A stretch of DNA of 64,000 bases from a virus: the IMG/VR virus record IMGVR_UViG_3300047472_000237, positions 18,788-82,787 of that record; one strand, 5' to 3'. The translations under genes were made by a program, and so were the position numbers. Of this stretch, positions 5,764 to 54,547 are shown piece by piece. Numbering within the stretch: position 1 is the first letter of the stretch; each line of letters starts with the position of its first letter. Below the pieces are notes generated by a model that saw only the letters and a program-made list of their open reading frames with translations, searched no databases and was not told where the DNA came from.

Positions 5764-5786
5764 TCGGTGAAGGGGAGAGCACCACG

Positions 5787-5816
5787 TGTCGGCTCCGGAT
5801 TATTCCGGAGCCGACA
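5787..5816 (+). terminator. Intrinsic terminator after tail tube gene
   Basis: A perfect 12-bp stem (TGTCGGCTCCGG and complement), extendable by one A-T pair to a 4-nt loop, is followed by TTGTTT. It ends the capsid-to-tail-tube transcription unit just before a new promoter. Confidence 0.85.
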
Positions 5817-5826
5817 TTGTTTCGGC

Positions 5827-5855
5827 TTGCCCACCGCTTCACCTTCCGGTACATT
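5827..5855 (+). promoter_or_regulatory. Promoter TTGCCC-N17-TACATT
   Basis: The -35 and -10 hexamers with a 17-bp spacer lie directly after the tail-tube terminator and about 70 bases before the tail chaperone ATG. They match the promoter pattern repeated throughout this window. A leader of about 64 nt with a CGGAG ribosome-binding site follows. Confidence 0.7.
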
Positions 5856-5925
5856 TCACTCCTCACGCTCGACAGCGGTCGGGCACTTGTAGAGAGTTCA
5901 GCGATAGTTTCACGGAGCACTGATC

Positions 5926-25176: not shown

Positions 25177-25203
25177 ACGCCCTGGGCCAGCAGCCCAGGG
25201 CGT
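25177..25203 (+). terminator. Intrinsic terminator after nrdA
   Basis: An 11-bp perfect stem (ACGCCCTGGGC and complement) with a 5-nt loop is followed by TTCGCATTTT. It closes the nrdBA unit. Confidence 0.85.
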
Positions 25204-25305: not shown

Positions 25306-26001
25306 ATGAACGTGCCGTACACTTCGAACGCGCTCGGCTTGACCATCAAGTCCGCTGACGACATCAAGACCCTCGAGCCCAAGCAGATGCTCTCGCTCCA
25401 CAACGAGATCTCGAACGCCTCCGTCAAGCGGTTCGCCGACAAGAAGAGCGGCGTCAAGCGCACGGTCGAAGCGTTCCAGACCTGGCAAGGCCAGCAGACC
25501 GAGAAGACGCCCAAGCTGGTCACCGCCGACCACAAGTCCTTCCGCAAGGACAGTGCCCGTGGCAAGGTCATCGCCGCTGCCTCGAAGGCCGGCGGTGCGA
25601 CCCGCGCCCAGCTGAAGGAGATCTCCGGCTGGGACGACACGAACCTGACGGCGGCCCTGAGCCGCGTCGAGTCGTACAACGGCCTGACCGTGACCCGCAC
25701 CGGCGAAGGCGACGAGCAGATCATCGTCATCACCGGCGTCCTCCGCACCCGCAAGGCGTTCGCCTTCGACCCGCTCCCCGAGAAGCAGCGTCGAGCACAC
25801 AAGGAGAGCGGCACGCCGACCAAGCGCTCCAAGGTCGTCGCCATGCTCACCGCCAAGGGCGGGGCCTCGTTCGAGGAGATCCAGGCGGCCACCGACTGGA
25901 ACGACCGCGACGCGTACGAAGGCATCCGTCTCATCCACAGCTATCTTGGATATGGCCTGAAAGAGACGGGCGAAGGCAAGATCATCGCTTTCCGCGCGTA
26001 A
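25306..26001 (+). CDS. Duplicated winged-helix-like DNA-binding protein (DUF3489-like)
   Basis: The 231-residue, basic protein has an N-terminal helical part ('MLSLHNEISNASVKRFADKKSG') and two similar helical repeats: 'RGKVIAAASKAGGATRAQLKEISGWDD' near 85-111 and 'RSKVVAMLTAKGGASFEEIQAATDWNDRDA' near 175-204, each followed by a beta hairpin. This resembles DUF3489-type winged helices. A related single copy is found at 63298. It likely binds DNA as a regulator or accessory factor; the target is unknown. It is read from its own promoter just before the large RNA element. Confidence 0.6.
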   Translation: MNVPYTSNALGLTIKSADDIKTLEPKQMLSLHNEISNASVKRFADKKSGVKRTVEAFQTWQGQQTEKTPKLVTADHKSFRKDSARGKVIAAASKAGGATRAQLKEISGWDDTNLTAALSRVESYNGLTVTRTGEGDEQIIVITGVLRTRKAFAFDPLPEKQRRAHKESGTPTKRSKVVAMLTAKGGASFEEIQAATDWNDRDAYEGIRLIHSYLGYGLKETGEGKIIAFRA

Positions 26002-26006
26002 TTCGC

Positions 26007-26034
26007 TTGCTACTGCCGCCAAGTGCGGTAAACT
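26007..26034 (+). promoter_or_regulatory. Promoter TTGCTA-N16-TAAACT for structured RNA
   Basis: The -10 box is identical to those at 36501 and 47031. Initiation about seven bases downstream falls at 26041, exactly where the closing stem of a large structured RNA begins. No open reading frame starts nearby. Confidence 0.7.
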
Positions 26035-26040
26035 GAAGTC

Positions 26041-26356
26041 GTCCTGATTGAGGCAGTCGGCCGCCCCGCTCACCCCGAGGGCGAAGACTGCAAAAATCAA
26101 AGTCGAGCAACGCCACAGAGGAGCTCCGGCTCCTCCAACCTGAGTCGCTTGCGGGTCTTCGGCCCCGTGAAGCGATGGCCCGTAAACGGTCGGGTCTGTA
26201 ACCAGGCATCGGTTCTGGAATGTAAACCGCCAACAGACGACTTGTGCGTCAACCACTGGCGGAGCATGAAGGAATCGCGCGGCGGGTGAGTGCACCACTG
26301 CAAGATTTCGGGGGATGAACAACGTCGTTCGTCGACTGCCTCATCAGGACACTTTT
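26041..26356 (+). ncRNA. Candidate large structured non-coding RNA (~315 nt)
   Basis: Bases 26041-26059 and 26333-26350 form an 18-bp closing stem with one bulged T. The 3' arm is followed by ACTTTTC, an intrinsic-terminator ending. Inside are several separate hairpins: GAGGAGC with a TCCG loop (26118-26135); a long hairpin with a TTCG loop (26145-26175); CCCG/CGGG (26179-26194); CCGCCA/TGGCGG enclosing GACG/CGTC (26227-26262); and AGTG/CACT (26289-26299). No ribosome-binding site plus ORF is convincing. It has its own promoter and lies in front of the DNA-hypermodification genes. It does not show the core sequences of RNase P RNA or tmRNA; the class is unknown. Confidence 0.7.
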
Positions 26357-26369
26357 CTCGAAAGAACCT

Positions 26370-27230
26370 ATGGCCTCCCAGAACTATCCCCGCGTCACGA
26401 TTGAAGACTTTGGCAAGCACCTGCTCGACGCGGGCGATCTGGATCCCATCTATCTCGGCCTCCACCGGCTGGCCCTCCCCGCGAATCAGCTTCATCGCTG
26501 GCTCCTGGCATACTGTTGCTTCTACAGCGCCGGCGTCGCTTCGTACCTCTCTGAGTTCGAGGGTGCGACCTTCTGGGAACACTTCCTCACCGCTGCCAAG
26601 AACGAGACCCCGGCCCCGCATGGCGGACGTTGGGAGCGTGGCAAGGAACGTCGCCACTTCCGTGGCGGACAGGCCATCAAGGCCACCAACGAGCTCATCG
26701 GCAAGTACCCCGTCCCCGAACTCGCCTTCAACGGGCACCTGGTCCGCCCCGGCGAGACCCGCCTACCCTTCAGCGTGGTCAGCGACCGCGCTCAGGAGTG
26801 GCGAGGCTTCGGCACCTGGATCTCCTTCAAGGTCGGCGACCTGCTCGACCGTGTCGGCATTATCCCCGTCGACTTCGCGTTTGACGAGGCGATGTACGAA
26901 GATCCGACCAAGGCCGCGATCATGCAGTGGAAGCTGCGGCGCGACCTGCCCCAGGACTCGACCATCGACGACCCGAAGGCCGCCGTGCAGGAGATCGTCG
27001 CGTACCTCATCGAGCACTTCAAGGACTATCTGGCCCCGCCGCTGCTCGACCGCCCCATCGGCCTCCAGGAGGTCGAGACGATCCTCTGCAAGTGGAAGTC
27101 GCACATCAACGGGCACTACCCGTTCTTCAACGACACGGTCGAGATCCACCACGGTGTCTCTCCCTGGGCCAACCACAGCGACACGGCCAAGCGGTTCCTC
27201 GCTGCCATGCCTCAGCCGCCGGCCAAGTAA
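26370..27230 (+). CDS. Amino acid:DNA transferase (aGPT-Pplase clade 2 / ADDT family)
   Basis: The 286-residue protein matches the helix-rich family first named alpha-glutamyl/putrescinyl thymine pyrophosphorylase clade 2, later shown to attach amino acids to phosphorylated 5-hydroxymethyluracil in DNA. Characteristic stretches are 'QLHRWLLAYCCFYSAGVASYLSE', 'GGRWERGKERRHFRG', 'WRGFGTWISFKVGDLLDRV', 'PVDFAFDEAMYEDPTKAAI' and 'GHYPFFNDT'. It is the entry enzyme for thymidine hypermodification and heads a cluster with flavoenzyme, acetyltransferase and kinase. ATG is preceded by GAAAGAA and follows the structured RNA by 13 bases. Confidence 0.8.
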   Translation: MASQNYPRVTIEDFGKHLLDAGDLDPIYLGLHRLALPANQLHRWLLAYCCFYSAGVASYLSEFEGATFWEHFLTAAKNETPAPHGGRWERGKERRHFRGGQAIKATNELIGKYPVPELAFNGHLVRPGETRLPFSVVSDRAQEWRGFGTWISFKVGDLLDRVGIIPVDFAFDEAMYEDPTKAAIMQWKLRRDLPQDSTIDDPKAAVQEIVAYLIEHFKDYLAPPLLDRPIGLQEVETILCKWKSHINGHYPFFNDTVEIHHGVSPWANHSDTAKRFLAAMPQPPAK

Positions 27231-32029: not shown

Positions 32030-32104
32030 TGACGCGATGGTCCAGATGGTAGGGCCGTGGGCTCATAACCCGCTGCATCGAAGGTTCGACTCCTTCCGCG
32101 TCAG
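32030..32104 (+). tRNA. tRNA with CAU anticodon, initiator-like anticodon stem
   Basis: A 75-base cloverleaf: acceptor TGACGCG/CGCGTCA, D-arm with AGATGGTA loop, anticodon stem GTGGG/CCCGC with CAT at 32064-32066, and T-arm GAAGG-TTCGACT-CCTTC. CCA is not encoded. Three consecutive G:C pairs next to the anticodon loop are the hallmark of initiator tRNA, but the first pair is U1:A72 rather than the C1 A72 mismatch. There is one extra base before position 8. It starts eight bases after the previous stop codon and ends three bases before the next ATG. tRNA-Ile with modified CAU is an alternative. Confidence 0.85.
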
Positions 32105-41043: not shown

Positions 41044-41072
41044 TTGCCTAACGAAGTGAAGTCGGAGAGACT
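41044..41072 (+). promoter_or_regulatory. Promoter TTGCCT-N17-GAGACT for sigma factor, leaderless
   Basis: The -35 box begins at a TTG that could be mistaken for the sigma gene start. The -10 box ends seven bases before the ATG at 41080. Since the gene encodes a sigma factor and its promoter matches the repeated phage motif, self-activation is possible. Confidence 0.7.
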
Positions 41073-43302: not shown

Positions 43303-44040
43303 ATGCGTATCGCCCGATCGTTCCTTTGCTCCTTCCTCGTGCTCACGCTCGTGGGCCTTCTCACTTTGCCGTCCGGTGGCTGTAAGGGCCACATCGAGAA
43401 CGCGAAGTCCATCAACGCCCAGGTCAAGCTCAAGACCGCCGAGATCGGGAAGGCTGCGGCCGTGGCGACCGCCCACGTTGTCGCCGCAGACGTAGCGGTC
43501 AAGCGGGCCGACGTAGCCGTCCGCGCGGCGGCCACGCAGCCCTCCAACCCGCCGGAGACCGTACGCCTCCTGAGCGAGGCGACGGACGACCACAAGGTGG
43601 CCCTGGCGGAGCTACCGAAGGCCGTCGTCGAGCTCAAGAAGGTCGCCCCGGCGACCCAGGCGGTGGCCGTCCTCTCCGACAAGGCAGAGGCCGTAACGGT
43701 CAAGGCCGTCGAGCAGCGTGACGCCGAGCGCGACCATTGGGTCGGATACAAGACGCGACAAGCGTTGCTGAAGGGGGTGATCGGCTTCGGCGGCATTGCA
43801 CTCGTCCTGGGCGTGATCACGTTTATCGTCAAGACGAACGGGGCCACGCCCATCCTTATGGCCCTCCGGCAGGTCGGCGGAATTATTGTTCAATTGGCCT
43901 TGCGTTTCCTTCGCTGGTTGGGCAGAATCACCTTCACGTTGGTGACGTTGGGAGCGAATAAGCTGGCCGACATTACCAACGAGAAGTACGAACAGCATGA
44001 ACAGGCGAAGGCGGCCGACGCCACGCAGAGCTCCGCGTGA
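43303..44040 (+). CDS. Lipoprotein-transmembrane protein, candidate unimolecular spanin
   Basis: The 245-residue product starts with an export signal ('FLCSFLVLTLVGLLTLPSGGC'), whose Cys could be lipid-modified, although the -3 to -1 residues SGG are not an ideal lipobox. A long Ala/Val/Lys/Glu coiled-coil region follows (about 30-145), then membrane segments 'GVIGFGGIALVLGVITFIV' (about 163-181) and a second hydrophobic stretch. A lipid anchor at one end and a membrane segment near the other is the plan of u-spanins, which fuse inner and outer membranes at lysis. A lipid-anchored tail or exclusion protein is an alternative. Confidence 0.5.
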   Translation: MRIARSFLCSFLVLTLVGLLTLPSGGCKGHIENAKSINAQVKLKTAEIGKAAAVATAHVVAADVAVKRADVAVRAAATQPSNPPETVRLLSEATDDHKVALAELPKAVVELKKVAPATQAVAVLSDKAEAVTVKAVEQRDAERDHWVGYKTRQALLKGVIGFGGIALVLGVITFIVKTNGATPILMALRQVGGIIVQLALRFLRWLGRITFTLVTLGANKLADITNEKYEQHEQAKAADATQSSA

Positions 44041-44058: not shown

Positions 44059-44094
44059 CGACGTCAGGCGGAGTGCCCACTCCGCCTGACGTCG
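44059..44094 (+). terminator. Strong intrinsic terminator
   Basis: A 16-bp perfect stem (CGACGTCAGGCGGAGT and complement) with a 4-nt loop is followed by TTTT. It is among the strongest terminators in the window and isolates the spanin candidate from the methyltransferase unit. Confidence 0.92.
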
Positions 44095-44110
44095 TTTTGG
44101 AGTCAGCTCA

Positions 44111-47949: not shown

Positions 47950-47977
47950 AATACTAGCGGGTCAGGTGAAGACCGGC

Positions 47978-47983
47978 TATAAT
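47978..47983 (+). promoter_or_regulatory. TATAAT -10 box at the head of the tail-fibre operon
   Basis: A consensus -10 box ends three bases before a 12-bp hairpin. No good -35 box lies at 17 bp (TAGCGG). Initiation would fall within the hairpin's 5' arm. Confidence 0.5.
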
Positions 47984-47985
47984 TC

Positions 47986-48013
47986 TGCCGCCCGCTCCGA
48001 TGAGCGGGCGGCA
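47986..48013 (+). terminator. Hairpin overlapping the fibre operon start
   Basis: A perfect 12-bp stem (TGCCGCCCGCTC and complement) with a 4-nt loop lies directly after TATAAT and before the ATG at 48030. It may terminate upstream transcripts or form a stabilising 5' structure on the fibre mRNA. Confidence 0.6.
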
Positions 48014-48029
48014 CTCTCATGAGGCGTTG

Positions 48030-48878
48030 ATGATTCCAGGTGTCACCATTTCAGGCGGCGGCTCTCCCGGCCGTCGTGGACCACAAGGCCCGTCCGGCGC
48101 ACCCGGCCGACAGGGTGACGATGGCACCAGCTTTCGCTGGCGTGGCCCCTGGCAGCGCGACGTCTTCTACACGCCGGGCGACGCTGTCAGCCACTTCGGC
48201 AACTCCTACATCTGCACGAAACAGAACGAAGATGTCAAACCCACGACGCGAAACTATTGGGACGTTCTTGCGAGTCAGGGCGCACTCGGCCCTCGTGGCC
48301 CTGGCGGTGGCGGTGGCGGTACGCCAGGGCCTACAGGCCCTGCCGGCCCGACTGGACCAGCGGGATCTCCCGGCACAGACGGCGTCCCTGGTCTGATCTG
48401 GCGTGAGGCCTGGAACTCCGGGACTGAATATGGACAAGACGACGCGGTCAGCCGCAACGGTCGCAGCTACATCGCCCTCGCCACAACGACCGGAGAAGAC
48501 CCGGAGCTCTTCCCGGCCAAGTGGGACTTGCTCGCCGACAAGGGTGCCGACGGTGCTGACGGTACTGACGGTGTCGATGGTGCTCCGGGTGCCGACGGCG
48601 CTGATGGCGTCGATGGTGCTGACGGTTCTCCTGGTGCCGCTGGTGCTCCGGGTATGGTCTGGAAGGGCGAATGGGACAGCGGTGCGACGTACGTGACGAC
48701 TGATGTCGTGCAGTACCTTGGCACCAGCTACATCGCTCTCAGCGGCAACACGAACGTCGAGCCGGGTACAGACGGCGGCGTCACGTGGGATGTCGTGGCG
48801 GCAGCGGGCAGCGGCGGCGGGGGCGGCGGTGGGTTCACCCATCCGCAGATCATGAGCAGGATTTCGATCGGAGTCTGA
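48030..48878 (+). CDS. Collagen-like tail fibre protein with carbohydrate-binding repeats
   Basis: The 282-residue protein has Gly-X-Y collagen-like stretches (about 10-32, 90-125 and 185-215) that separate three copies of a ~50-residue module: 'FRWRGPWQRDVFYTPGDAVSHFGNSYIC', 'LIWREAWNSGTEYGQDDAVSRNGRSYIAL', and 'MVWKGEWDSGATYVTTDVVQYLGTSYIAL'. These resemble chitin-binding type-3 modules that bind sugars. It ends in a glycine run before 'FTHPQIMSRISIGV'. It is likely a trimeric fibre for host binding. ATG at 48030 has GAGG five bases upstream. Confidence 0.78.
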   Translation: MIPGVTISGGGSPGRRGPQGPSGAPGRQGDDGTSFRWRGPWQRDVFYTPGDAVSHFGNSYICTKQNEDVKPTTRNYWDVLASQGALGPRGPGGGGGGTPGPTGPAGPTGPAGSPGTDGVPGLIWREAWNSGTEYGQDDAVSRNGRSYIALATTTGEDPELFPAKWDLLADKGADGADGTDGVDGAPGADGADGVDGADGSPGAAGAPGMVWKGEWDSGATYVTTDVVQYLGTSYIALSGNTNVEPGTDGGVTWDVVAAAGSGGGGGGGFTHPQIMSRISIGV

Positions 48879-48883
48879 CAACT

Positions 48884-51800
48884 ATGTTCTTCCTTGACAC
48901 AACCAGCAAGTCGCTCGAGCTCGTCCTGGGCGGAGCGAAGACCACCAACCATCTGACGTGGACGACCTCCTGGGCCGACCACACGAGCACGGCGTTCAGC
49001 CTGGCCTCGGACGACGGCGTGTCGAACGACACCACGGCGGTCACCATCGTTCCCGCGCCGAGCGGCTCGAACAAGCGACAGGTGAAGTACGTCAACATCC
49101 ACAACACCGACACGGTCGATGCCGACGTCATCATCCAGATGAACACGGGCACCGTCCGCAAGATGATCTCGGTGACGCTCGCCAAGCTGGAGTCCCTCGT
49201 CTACGACGAGCACAACGGCTGGCAGGTCATGCTGGAGGACGGCGGCGTCAAGATCCTCGGCCCCAAGGGTGACAAGGGCGACACCGGCGAACAGGGCGAG
49301 CAAGGGGAGCAGGGCGAACAGGGCATCCAAGGCATCCAGGGCGTGGCCGGCGACGACGGGGCCGACGGCGCGGATGGTGCTGACGGGGCCACGGGGGCAA
49401 CCGGAGCGGACGGCGACGACGGGGCGGATGGTGCCGACGGCATCAGCTTCATCTGGCGTGGGGCGTACAACGGTGCGACCGCGTACGTCGCCAACGATGC
49501 GGTGAGCTACCTGGGCTCGTCCTACATCGCCATTGCCTCGACGACAGGCAACCTCCCGACCGACGCGACCAAGTGGGAGCTCATGGCCCAGAAGGGCGAC
49601 ACCGGGGCCACCGGCGCGACTGGGGCAACTGGTGCTGCGGGAGCCGACGGCGCTGATGGTGTCGACGGGGATGACGGGGCGACGGGTGCCACCGGAGCGA
49701 CTGGATCCACGGGGGCCACGGGTGCGGCCGGCCGCAACGCGGGCCTTCGCTACCTCTACTCGACGGACACGGCGAACACCGACCCGACCAGCGGCAAGGT
49801 CAAGTTCAATACGACGACCCTCTCGGCGGCGGTCACCCTCCGCATCAGCGAAACGGACAACGACGCGAACAACGTGGCGTCCTTCCTCGCCACTTGGGAC
49901 GACGGCACGAGCACCATCAAGGGCACCGTCGTCATGACCAAGACGGCTGACCCGGCCGTGCTCGCGGCGTTCGACATCAGCGGCACGCTGACGGACAGCG
50001 GCACGTGGGACGCCTTCACGGTGGTCAACACGCTCTCCGCCGGCAGCTTTGCGAACAACGACCCGGTCGAGCTCAAGTTCACCGCCAAGGGCGACAAGGG
50101 CGATACGGGTGCGACCGGGTCGACTGGCTCGACGGGCACCACGGGAACGGCGGGCACCAACGGAACGAACGGCATCAGCGTCGGCAACAAGTTCACCTAC
50201 AGCACGACCACGACCGCGTCCGACCCCGGCGCGGGCCTCTTCCGCCTGAACAACGCGACGCCGGCCTCGGCCACCGCGATCTACATCAGCGAAACCGACG
50301 CCGACGCGGCGGGCATCGGTGCGTTGCTTGCCACCTTCGACGACTCGACCAGCACCGTCAAGGGCCAGCTGACCATCCGCAAGGACGCCGACAGTTCGAG
50401 CTTCCGCGTGTACGCCGTCTCCGGCACGCTCACCGACAACGGCAGTTGGGACACGCTCACCATCGCTCACGTCGCGGGCAACGGCACCTGGGCCAACAAC
50501 GACGTCATGCGGGTCACCTTCGACCGCACGGGCGACAAGGGTGACACCGGCGCAACGGGCACCACGGGAACGACCGGCACGGCGGGCACCAACGGCACCG
50601 ACGGCGTGAGCAACGGCTTCCAGTACGTCTACAGCACCACCACGACCGCCAGCGACCCAGGCTCTGGCATCTTCCGACTGAACAACGCCACCGTCGCCTC
50701 GGCCACCGCGCTGTACATCAGCGAGACGGACAACCTCGCCAACGCCATCGCGGCTGAGATCGCGACGTGGGACGACTCGACCTCGACGATCAAGATGCGG
50801 TTGAAGATCGTCAAGAAGTCGACCCCGGCGACCTTCGCGGAGTTCAACGTCACGGGCACCCTGACCGACAACGGCACGTGGGATACCATGACGGTGGCCT
50901 ACGTGACCGGCGCTGGCACCTTCTCCAACAGCGACGTGGTCCTGATTCAGCCCAGCAGGGTCGGCGACAAGGGCGACACAGGCACGACGGGCACCACGGG
51001 CACGACTGGCACGCCGGGAACGAACGGCACCAACGGTCTCGACGAGGGATACCTCTACGCCTACAACAGCACCACGACCGCGAGCGACCCCGGCTCAGGC
51101 ACCTTCCGCCTGAACAACGCCACGCTCGGATCCGCGACGGCGCTGTACATCAGCGAGACCGACGGGGACGGCGTCACGCTGACGAGTCTGCTCGCCGCGT
51201 TCGACGACTCGACCTCGACCAACAAGGGATACATCACCTTCCGCAAGGTCGGCACGTCGGCCAACTATCGCACGTATGCGATCACCGGCACGCTGACCGA
51301 CAGCGGCACCTGGAACACGTTCACCCTGACCCACGTGGCGGGTGCTGGCACGTGGACGACCGGCGATACGTTCCGCCTGACCTACGCTCGCACGGGCGAC
51401 AAGGGCGACACGGGTGCCACCGGCGCAGACGGGGCCGCTGGTGCCACGGGCTCGACCGGCTCGACTGGCTCGGCGGGTGCCAACGGCATCGACGCGGGCG
51501 TCCCCTTCCAGTACAGCACCACCACGACCGCGAGCGACCCCGGCGCGGGGTTCCTCCGGTTCAACAACGCGACCCTGTCCTCGGCCACCACGCTGTACAT
51601 CAGCGAGACCGCCTCGAGCAGCATCGGCATTGCCAACTGGCTCGCCAACTGGGGCCGGGCGAACAGCCAGCTGATCCGTGGGTTCATCCACGTGTACAGC
51701 AAGGTGTCGCCGACCACGTTTGCGATCTTCAGCCTCCGCTCGGCTCCGACCGACAACGGCACCTGGAACACGTTCACGGTCGCCCCGATCATGACGAACG

Positions 51801-52507
51801 GCACCTTGGGCAACAACGACGCGGTCAGCATCGTCTACGAAAGCAGCGGTGCAGAAGTCGACAACGACAGCCTTCAGGTCAACGGCAGCGGTCTGCTCGA
51901 GATGCACAAGGCGCGGAACTCTTCCGGTGATCCTGGCAGCGTGGGCGACGGGGAGCTCTGGACGGACACGGCCGGCGGCAACCGCGTGCGTGCCCGTTCG
52001 GGCGGCACCAGTTCGTCCTGGTGTGGCGTGGCCAGCGTCACGAGCTCCAGCGTCAGCGTCTCGAACACGACGTCAGAAACTCAGTTCACGAACTCTGTCC
52101 TGAACGTGACGGCGGCTTCGCTCGCCAGCGAGCGGACATACGAAGTGGTCGCGTGGGGGCGGTATCAGTCGACGGCCACACCCAACCTCCAGTTCCGTAT
52201 CAAGATCAACGGTGCAGCGGGCACGACCTTGTCCGGTTCCGGCAACTTCGCGGTGATCACGAATGCCAACACGCGCGTGTGGTTCACCCGTGCCATCATC
52301 ACCTTCTGGGGCAGCGGCTCAAGCGTTACGGCTTCCACGTTCCAGGACTCGTCGGTCGACAACTCCGTCGACTCGGCTCGTCACGATCTCACGACTGGTA
52401 TCAACCTCTCGAGCAACTTCACCATGGGCGTCACGGCCACCTGGTCGGCCGCGTCCTCCTCGAACGTCGCAACCTGCAACGGCTGCGTCTGGAAGGCAAT
52501 GAACTAA
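48884..52507 (+). CDS. Large repetitive tail fibre protein
   Basis: The 1207-residue protein starts with a short attachment domain (about 1-120), then collagen-like triplets and a sugar-binding-type module ('FIWRGAYNGATAYVANDAVSYLGSSYIAI'), then five tandem ~144-residue units, each with 'YSTTTTASDPG', 'ATALYISETD' and 'GTLTDNGTWDT' plus a collagen-like linker ('GDKGDTGATG'). A distinct C-terminal head domain (about 1000-1207) follows. This is a host-recognition fibre; the repeats set its length. ATG at 48884 follows the previous gene by five bases. Confidence 0.8.
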   Translation: MFFLDTTSKSLELVLGGAKTTNHLTWTTSWADHTSTAFSLASDDGVSNDTTAVTIVPAPSGSNKRQVKYVNIHNTDTVDADVIIQMNTGTVRKMISVTLAKLESLVYDEHNGWQVMLEDGGVKILGPKGDKGDTGEQGEQGEQGEQGIQGIQGVAGDDGADGADGADGATGATGADGDDGADGADGISFIWRGAYNGATAYVANDAVSYLGSSYIAIASTTGNLPTDATKWELMAQKGDTGATGATGATGAAGADGADGVDGDDGATGATGATGSTGATGAAGRNAGLRYLYSTDTANTDPTSGKVKFNTTTLSAAVTLRISETDNDANNVASFLATWDDGTSTIKGTVVMTKTADPAVLAAFDISGTLTDSGTWDAFTVVNTLSAGSFANNDPVELKFTAKGDKGDTGATGSTGSTGTTGTAGTNGTNGISVGNKFTYSTTTTASDPGAGLFRLNNATPASATAIYISETDADAAGIGALLATFDDSTSTVKGQLTIRKDADSSSFRVYAVSGTLTDNGSWDTLTIAHVAGNGTWANNDVMRVTFDRTGDKGDTGATGTTGTTGTAGTNGTDGVSNGFQYVYSTTTTASDPGSGIFRLNNATVASATALYISETDNLANAIAAEIATWDDSTSTIKMRLKIVKKSTPATFAEFNVTGTLTDNGTWDTMTVAYVTGAGTFSNSDVVLIQPSRVGDKGDTGTTGTTGTTGTPGTNGTNGLDEGYLYAYNSTTTASDPGSGTFRLNNATLGSATALYISETDGDGVTLTSLLAAFDDSTSTNKGYITFRKVGTSANYRTYAITGTLTDSGTWNTFTLTHVAGAGTWTTGDTFRLTYARTGDKGDTGATGADGAAGATGSTGSTGSAGANGIDAGVPFQYSTTTTASDPGAGFLRFNNATLSSATTLYISETASSSIGIANWLANWGRANSQLIRGFIHVYSKVSPTTFAIFSLRSAPTDNGTWNTFTVAPIMTNGTLGNNDAVSIVYESSGAEVDNDSLQVNGSGLLEMHKARNSSGDPGSVGDGELWTDTAGGNRVRARSGGTSSSWCGVASVTSSSVSVSNTTSETQFTNSVLNVTAASLASERTYEVVAWGRYQSTATPNLQFRIKINGAAGTTLSGSGNFAVITNANTRVWFTRAIITFWGSGSSVTASTFQDSSVDNSVDSARHDLTTGINLSSNFTMGVTATWSAASSSNVATCNGCVWKAMN
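49742..51860 (+). repeat. Five tandem coding repeats of about 432-450 bp
   Basis: Repeat units start near 49742, 50183, 50615, 51047 and 51497. The middle ones are exactly 432 bp apart. Each encodes a ~100-residue beta module and, except the last, a collagen-like linker. Identity is high in the linkers and in the 'TTTTASDPG' start, lower elsewhere, so they are diverged duplications. Confidence 0.8.
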
Positions 52508-53680: not shown

Positions 53681-54547
53681 ATGTCGCAACGCAACCTTAT
53701 GGACGGCTTCATCAGCCACCTGTGCTCCGAACGCCGCCTGGCGGACGAGACCGTGGAAGCGTACCGGCGCGACGTCCACGCGGCCAACACCTACCTGAAG
53801 ACGCTCGGCGTCGAGCTCGCCACGGCTACCCTGGAGCACATCCAGACGTACGTGCGAAGCCGCTCGCAGATGGGCCACTCGGCCGCTACGGTCGCCCGCA
53901 ACATCGCGGCCATCCGCTGCTTCCTGATGTACCAGACCGCCCTGGGCCAAGACCGCACGGCGGTGGCTGAGGCGATGGAACGGCCCAAGGGCGAGCAGCG
54001 GCTTCCGACGATCATCAGTGAGGCCCAGGCGGCGGCCATGATGGACGTGCCCCTCGGCGCTCCTCTGGCCCTCCGGGACAAGGCGATGCTCGAACTGTTG
54101 TACGGCTGCGGCCTTCGTGCAAGCGAGCTTGTGGGCGTGCGGATCGACGCCCTCGACCTGGCGGCTGGCACCCTGCGGGTCATCGGCAAGGGTGACCGCG
54201 AGCGCGAGCTCCCGCTCAATGCTACGGCCGCTCGAGCCGTCGCCGCGTACCTGGAGGCCCGCCCGCCCTCAAAGCACCCGACGCTCTTCCTGAGCTACCG
54301 GGGCGAGCCTCTGGACCGCATCGCGCTGTGGCACATCGTAGGCCGCCACGCCGAACGGGCCGGCATCTGCAAGCACGTGCACCCGCACGTCCTGCGACAC
54401 GCCTTCGCCAGCCACATGCTCAGCGGCGGGGCCGACCTTCGCGTCATCCAGGAGATGCTCGGCCACGCCGATGTCACCACGACGCAAGGGTACGTCCACG
54501 TGGATATTAAACGCCTGAAAGGTGTGCACGCCCTACTCGGACGGTGA
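53681..54547 (+). CDS. Tyrosine recombinase, XerD-like integrase
   Basis: The 288-residue protein has the N-terminal core-binding SAM-like domain ('FISHLCSERRLADETVEAYRRDV') and the catalytic residues Arg146 ('GLRASELVG'), a Lys in 'VIGKGDRERELPL', His236 and Arg239 ('HVLRHAF'), His262 ('GHADVTTTQGY') and nucleophile Tyr271. Its size and sequence are nearer to XerC/XerD than to lambda integrase, and it has no arm-binding domain. It may integrate the phage or resolve genome multimers. It is probably leaderless. Confidence 0.9.
   Translation: MSQRNLMDGFISHLCSERRLADETVEAYRRDVHAANTYLKTLGVELATATLEHIQTYVRSRSQMGHSAATVARNIAAIRCFLMYQTALGQDRTAVAEAMERPKGEQRLPTIISEAQAAAMMDVPLGAPLALRDKAMLELLYGCGLRASELVGVRIDALDLAAGTLRVIGKGDRERELPLNATAARAVAAYLEARPPSKHPTLFLSYRGEPLDRIALWHIVGRHAERAGICKHVHPHVLRHAFASHMLSGGADLRVIQEMLGHADVTTTQGYVHVDIKRLKGVHALLGR

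Follow-up and report, generated by a model that had tools for sequence, protein, structure and literature searches.

What occupies the gap ahead of the first gene of a putative phage thymidine-hypermodification cluster? The window considered here (the whole stretch of DNA that was analyzed, 64,000 nucleotides, bases 18788 to 82787 of an 82,787-base IMG/VR virus record) comes from a phage that is, on sequence grounds, a relative of Pseudomonas phage YuA and its group (Mesyanzhinovviridae). Its genes include a ribonucleotide reductase pair, a Dda-like helicase, an ADDT-type amino acid:DNA transferase (aGPT-Pplase2), a DAO-like enzyme, an acetyltransferase, a kinase-like protein, an HMUDK-type protein, and a thymidylate synthase. 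This set resembles the cluster for thymidine hypermodification that Mesyanzhinovviridae, for example YuA and M6, carry, and the aGPT-Pplase2 protein is ~50% identical to YuA gp10 and other Mesyanzhinovviridae homologues (YuA, M6). Between the end of a gp08-like gene (26001) and the start of aGPT-Pplase2 (26370) lie 368 nt of noncoding-looking DNA, in which a first-pass annotation had placed an undescribed structured RNA with its own promoter and terminator, in front of hypermodification genes. The gene starting at 26370 is the first of the cluster. The junction is laid out as follows.

25306 to 26001, plus strand: upstream gene, YuA gp08-like by alignment, with a C-terminal DUF3489-like domain (PF11994, E = 4.7e-10)
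26007 to 26034, plus strand: promoter, read directly, with -35 TTGCTA (26007 to 26012), a 16-nt spacer, and -10 TAAACT (26029 to 26034); one of the GCTTGCT/TTGC[CT] set
26041 to 26059, plus strand: 5' arm of the closing stem (18 bp and a single bulged U), from the fold and the inverted-repeat search; 26041 is the predicted transcription start
26118 to 26135, plus strand: hairpin GAGGAGC-UCCG-GCUCCUC with a UNCG-type loop (pair probability 1.0)
26144 to 26176, plus strand: hairpin GUCGCUUGCGGGUC-UUCG-GCCCCGUGAAGCGAU, rivaled by an alternative pairing (mean probability of the arm ~0.75)
26210 to 26277, plus strand: long internal arm CGGUUCU..AUGU..CCGCCA / UGGCGG..GCAU..GGAAUCG (pair probability 0.94 to 0.99)
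26333 to 26350, plus strand: 3' arm of the closing stem, from the fold and the inverted-repeat search
26352 to 26364, plus strand: segment CUUUUCUCGAAAG, whose UUUU, taken at first for the tail of a terminator, is able to base-pair with the downstream gene's Shine-Dalgarno-like GAAAG (from the sequence and a fold of the leader to 26400)
26370 to 27230, plus strand: downstream gene, aGPT-Pplase2/ADDT amino acid:DNA transferase, first of the thymidine hypermodification cluster (PF18724, E = 1.1e-21)

The promoter proposed at first has stood up. Because TTGCTA-16-TAAACT belongs to a promoter set that recurs in this phage, a transcription start near 26041 is a sound prediction; a generic sigma-70 scan did not pick up the site at 26007 to 26034. 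The heptamer GCTTGCT occurs six times on the plus strand of the window, five of them in noncoding DNA, which makes up 13.6% of the window. All five noncoding copies precede genes, each with a -10-like box, and noncoding DNA on the opposite strand holds none anywhere in the window. Neighboring genes with the same promoter type appear to have far shorter leaders (roughly 7 to 65 nt by our reading of the sequence), and the extra 300 nt would therefore be specific to the aGPT-Pplase2 gene.

Sites of the GCTTGCT/TTGC[CT] type, with a -10-like box ~15 to 19 nt downstream, lie at window positions 5826, 18053, 19630, 25226, 26006, 27235, 61168, and 63927; they precede individual genes and are absent from the other strand's noncoding DNA. 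The annotated promoters of YuA differ from this type in their sequence motif. A protein encoded at 41044 to 41886 matches phage RNA polymerase sigma-factor families (phrog_351, E = 6e-24) and is a candidate reader of these promoters.

The region itself is noncoding, as had been claimed. Its codon-position GC is 0.53 to 0.69 in every frame, compared with about 0.6/0.43/0.88 in the phage's genes, and none of its open frames tested has a Pfam or other family match, two observations on which coding in any frame was rejected. The longest sense-strand open frame, of 85 codons, begins without an ordinary start codon. A decayed form of gp09, which occupies the same gap in YuA, was also rejected, there being no tblastn match.

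The closing stem pairs 26041 to 26059 with 26333 to 26350 as 8 + 10 bp around one bulged U and encloses ~310 nt, its arms being 273 nt apart rather than the 290 given by the first-pass annotation. Its pair probability is 0.93 to 1.0 in the isolated leader and 0.87 to 1.0 in longer mRNA constructs, except in the construct ending at 26430, where another predicted fold replaces it. The corresponding inverted repeat is the best long-range one of the intergenic stretch, with a score of 49 that was reached by 0 of 1000 dinucleotide shuffles (mean 27, maximum 45) and is the highest of 346 phage windows, the next best scoring 48 and 44. The 18-bp stem described at first is thus well founded. Its coincidence with the transcription start is looser than was claimed; the predicted start at 26041 holds, but the exactness is softened because the inverted repeat runs on imperfectly to 26036 and 26354, as imperfect 24-bp terminal inverted repeats. 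Elsewhere in the window, near 52440, there is an inverted repeat whose score falls just short of the closing stem's; it lies in the region of a collagen-like Gly-X-Y repeat protein of the tail fiber type (47950 to 52507).

The predicted fold (-143.7 kcal/mol, z = -5.35) was matched in stability by 0 of 100 shuffles. In a genome-wide sliding scan, which used a reduced number of shuffles, the region's fold excess ranked third of 300 windows, behind one at 43879 that contains a terminator hairpin and one at 640 that runs into an intergenic hairpin after the first gene. Several internal hairpins are present, among them both of the UNCG-type loops noticed originally, c(UCCG)g and c(UUCG)g. Strand asymmetry is uninformative here because the minus strand is almost as stable when folded (-135.6, compared with -141.8 for the plus strand in the same run).

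At the 3' end the original description gives way. An intrinsic terminator scan found none at the end of the RNA, whose tail, ACUUUUCUC, is weak, with only UUUU after a stem with a 273-nt loop and without a short-loop hairpin. The aGPT-Pplase2 start codon is 19 nt downstream of the stem, and no second promoter was found between them, 19 nt leaving no room for one. The region thus has, at the sequence level, the promoter of its own that a free-standing small RNA would have, and lacks the short-loop, G+C-rich hairpin and U run of an intrinsic terminator; as a 5' leader would, it follows a promoter and leads up to a single gene's start codon, with no terminator or promoter intervening. The phage's apparent terminators are strong short-loop hairpins behind genes, with short T runs only (GTTTTGG, GTTTCGC); such hairpins lie at window positions 44060 to 44095, 25180 to 25200, 5764 to 5925, and 691 to 890.

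In the data searched, from which records very close to the window's own may be missing, the RNA is an orphan, represented by one sequence. A blastn search of 50,697 phages, 72,556 plasmids, and 5,426 E. coli genomes gave no homologue, and none came from ~170 related loci and 70+ whole relative phage records, which were searched with blastn, with nhmmer, and with a covariance model for which the one RNA sequence was entered in duplicate. The relatives comprised 80 loci from an alignment-based search with aGPT-Pplase2, 80 found by the DNA-transfer protein, and 14 by gp08 alignment, along with 4 bacterial-genome contigs and named phages. Single-protein searches of viral contigs with aGPT-Pplase2 and gp08 gave no close relative; of three exact RNA patterns run against viral contigs, two had no match and one matched 10 unrelated places without the partner arm. 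In the literature searched, which lacks most subscription journals, no account of an RNA at this site came to light.

The gp08-aGPT-Pplase2 junction of the Mesyanzhinovviridae (YuA, Ab18/20, Epa5, FP1, Sonora) is alike in its flanking genes and their order but differs in what lies between, which is usually 0 to 145 nt or protein genes and contains no hairpin beyond a short terminator-like one or an unrelated one of 12 to 14 bp. Likewise, among relatives with a placeable gp08-like neighbor, the junction is mostly 0 to 145 nt or filled by protein genes. Large gaps in four loci were considered as sites of an RNA and rejected; they were read as protein genes because open frames fill them, of ~95 to 110 codons directly after gp08 in L048, L053, and L015 and of ~180 codons in L051. 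Hairpins do occur near the junction in some relatives (L010, L022/L189, L019, and L196, and in L198 after the gp08 gene), mostly with 12- to 14-bp stems and loops of up to ~60 nt and with no sequence similarity to the RNA; a hairpin at this position may recur without sequence conservation. Those at L019:4367-4491, L196:3300-3360, and L198:3141-3240 are unrelated 12- to 14-bp hairpins after the gp08-like gene; the L019 and L198 hairpins have loops of 47 to 60 nt, and the L019 and L196 hairpins sit at the gp08/aGPT-Pplase2 junction.

At the level of sequence, then, the feature is real in its promoter, stem, fold significance, noncoding nature, position, and absence from the relatives examined. 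The interpretation that we favor, and hold with about even confidence, is that 26041 to 26352 is a structured 5' leader of the aGPT-Pplase2 mRNA, most likely acting in cis on its stability or expression. A leader is more economical than a free-standing transcript because the gene starts so soon after the stem, with no promoter between them and no terminator. We infer transcription of the RNA, read-through into the gene, and every regulatory step along the following lines. Transcription would begin at the phage-type promoter, at ~26041, and continue into aGPT-Pplase2 (26370), and the 18-bp stem would lock the 5' end of the transcript into a compact multi-hairpin domain ending ~9 nt upstream of the Shine-Dalgarno sequence. 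So placed, the leader would most likely shield the 5' end from decay and/or set ribosome access to the modification gene, and cleavage may in addition leave it behind as a stable RNA.

Structured 5' leaders are familiar in bacterial and phage mRNAs, as ompA-type stabilizing 5' stems and as riboswitch or attenuator leaders. The present region resembles them in being promoter-proximal and noncoding, in its 5'-terminal stem, and in stopping a little short of a single gene's ribosome-binding site, but it differs from known examples in being ~310 nt long and multi-branched, with no match to a riboswitch or leader in Rfam, no known signal, and no homologues found. Several points count against the leader interpretation: the RNA has no known ligand-binding or attenuator signature, the main domain does not clearly mask the Shine-Dalgarno sequence, the construct ending at 26430 loses the closing stem in prediction, and there is a single sequence with no homologue found, hence a fold without covariation or other sign of selection.

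Among the alternatives, a free-standing, stable phage noncoding RNA of ~310 nt, closed by the terminal stem and released by termination or processing before the gene to serve as a trans-acting regulator, a protein scaffold, or a decoy, seems rather unlikely. The predicted start at the base of the terminal stem, the short U run after it, and the compact multi-branched fold with UNCG caps in a noncoding region all speak for such an RNA. However, no intrinsic terminator was found, whereas the phage's apparent terminators are strong short-loop hairpins; the gene start is 19 nt off, with no other promoter; and no relative examined carries the RNA. What stands of the original proposal is an undescribed, structured candidate noncoding RNA, outside Rfam, behind a phage-type promoter, and what lacks support is the terminator and with it the free-standing transcript. 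Decidedly unlikely, in our view, is a new structural class of ~310-nt phage RNA, free-standing or processed, that is made from a phage promoter at the head of the hypermodification cluster and serves the pathway in trans, as a scaffold, or as a sensor. It is unlikely, too, that the stretch is weakly functional or nonfunctional intergenic DNA gained by the phage, in which a chance long inverted repeat and ordinary G+C-rich folding lie behind a real promoter. Such DNA would fit a single sequence without homologues found, the nearness of other phage windows in inverted-repeat score (48 and 44) and fold excess, and the almost equal folding of the two strands, but not so well the shuffles, none of which equaled the stem score or the fold energy; a long leader of no use would also be out of the ordinary in this phage, whose genes are tightly spaced and whose leaders are short.

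A MITE-like element without a gene, inserted at the gp08/aGPT-Pplase2 junction at the DNA level, would account for the imperfect 24-bp terminal inverted repeats around ~310 bp and for the lack of such an insert in relatives. We consider it very unlikely: the element is single copy in the record and was not found in the phages, plasmids, and E. coli genomes searched, inspection by eye revealed no target-site duplication at its ends, and the start of the repeat comes directly after a promoter of the phage's own type. Least credible of all is a known class too diverged to recognize (RNase P RNA, tmRNA, 6S RNA, a riboswitch, a group I or II intron, a retron RNA, or a guide RNA), for which the size, within the range of several of these, is the argument. 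A search of Rfam 15, one of the checks that the first-pass annotation had proposed, gave no family at the gathering threshold for the RNA, the window's only match being a tRNA elsewhere, and ARAGORN reported no tmRNA, only a tRNA-Met at 32030. The suggestion of a guide-like or retron-like RNA loses ground for want of its expected partners, as the record contains neither a reverse transcriptase domain (PF00078) nor a TnpB/Cas12f-type domain (PF07282). At the sensitivity of the Rfam, ARAGORN, and reverse transcriptase/TnpB searches, the obvious known RNA families are excluded. In a permissive Rfam search, CrcZ appeared (E = 2.9, 9.2 bits against a threshold of 95) and was rejected as chance.

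ROOL and GOLLD occur in phages or prophages. With OLE, they are likewise large structured noncoding RNAs, which form homo-oligomeric complexes and widespread families (PMC12286853), but they are larger than this RNA, to which Rfam assigns no match.

If transcribed and functional, the leader would subject a phage gene for thymidine hypermodification to control by RNA, and it could represent a new RNA fold; no such leader turned up in the related phages searched. At present it stands as a well-formed single-sequence candidate without evolutionary support. As to the phage that carries it, an integrase-like gene at window positions 53681 to 54547 (phrog_1, E = 9e-44) is present in a genome otherwise related to Mesyanzhinovviridae and suggests that the phage may be temperate.
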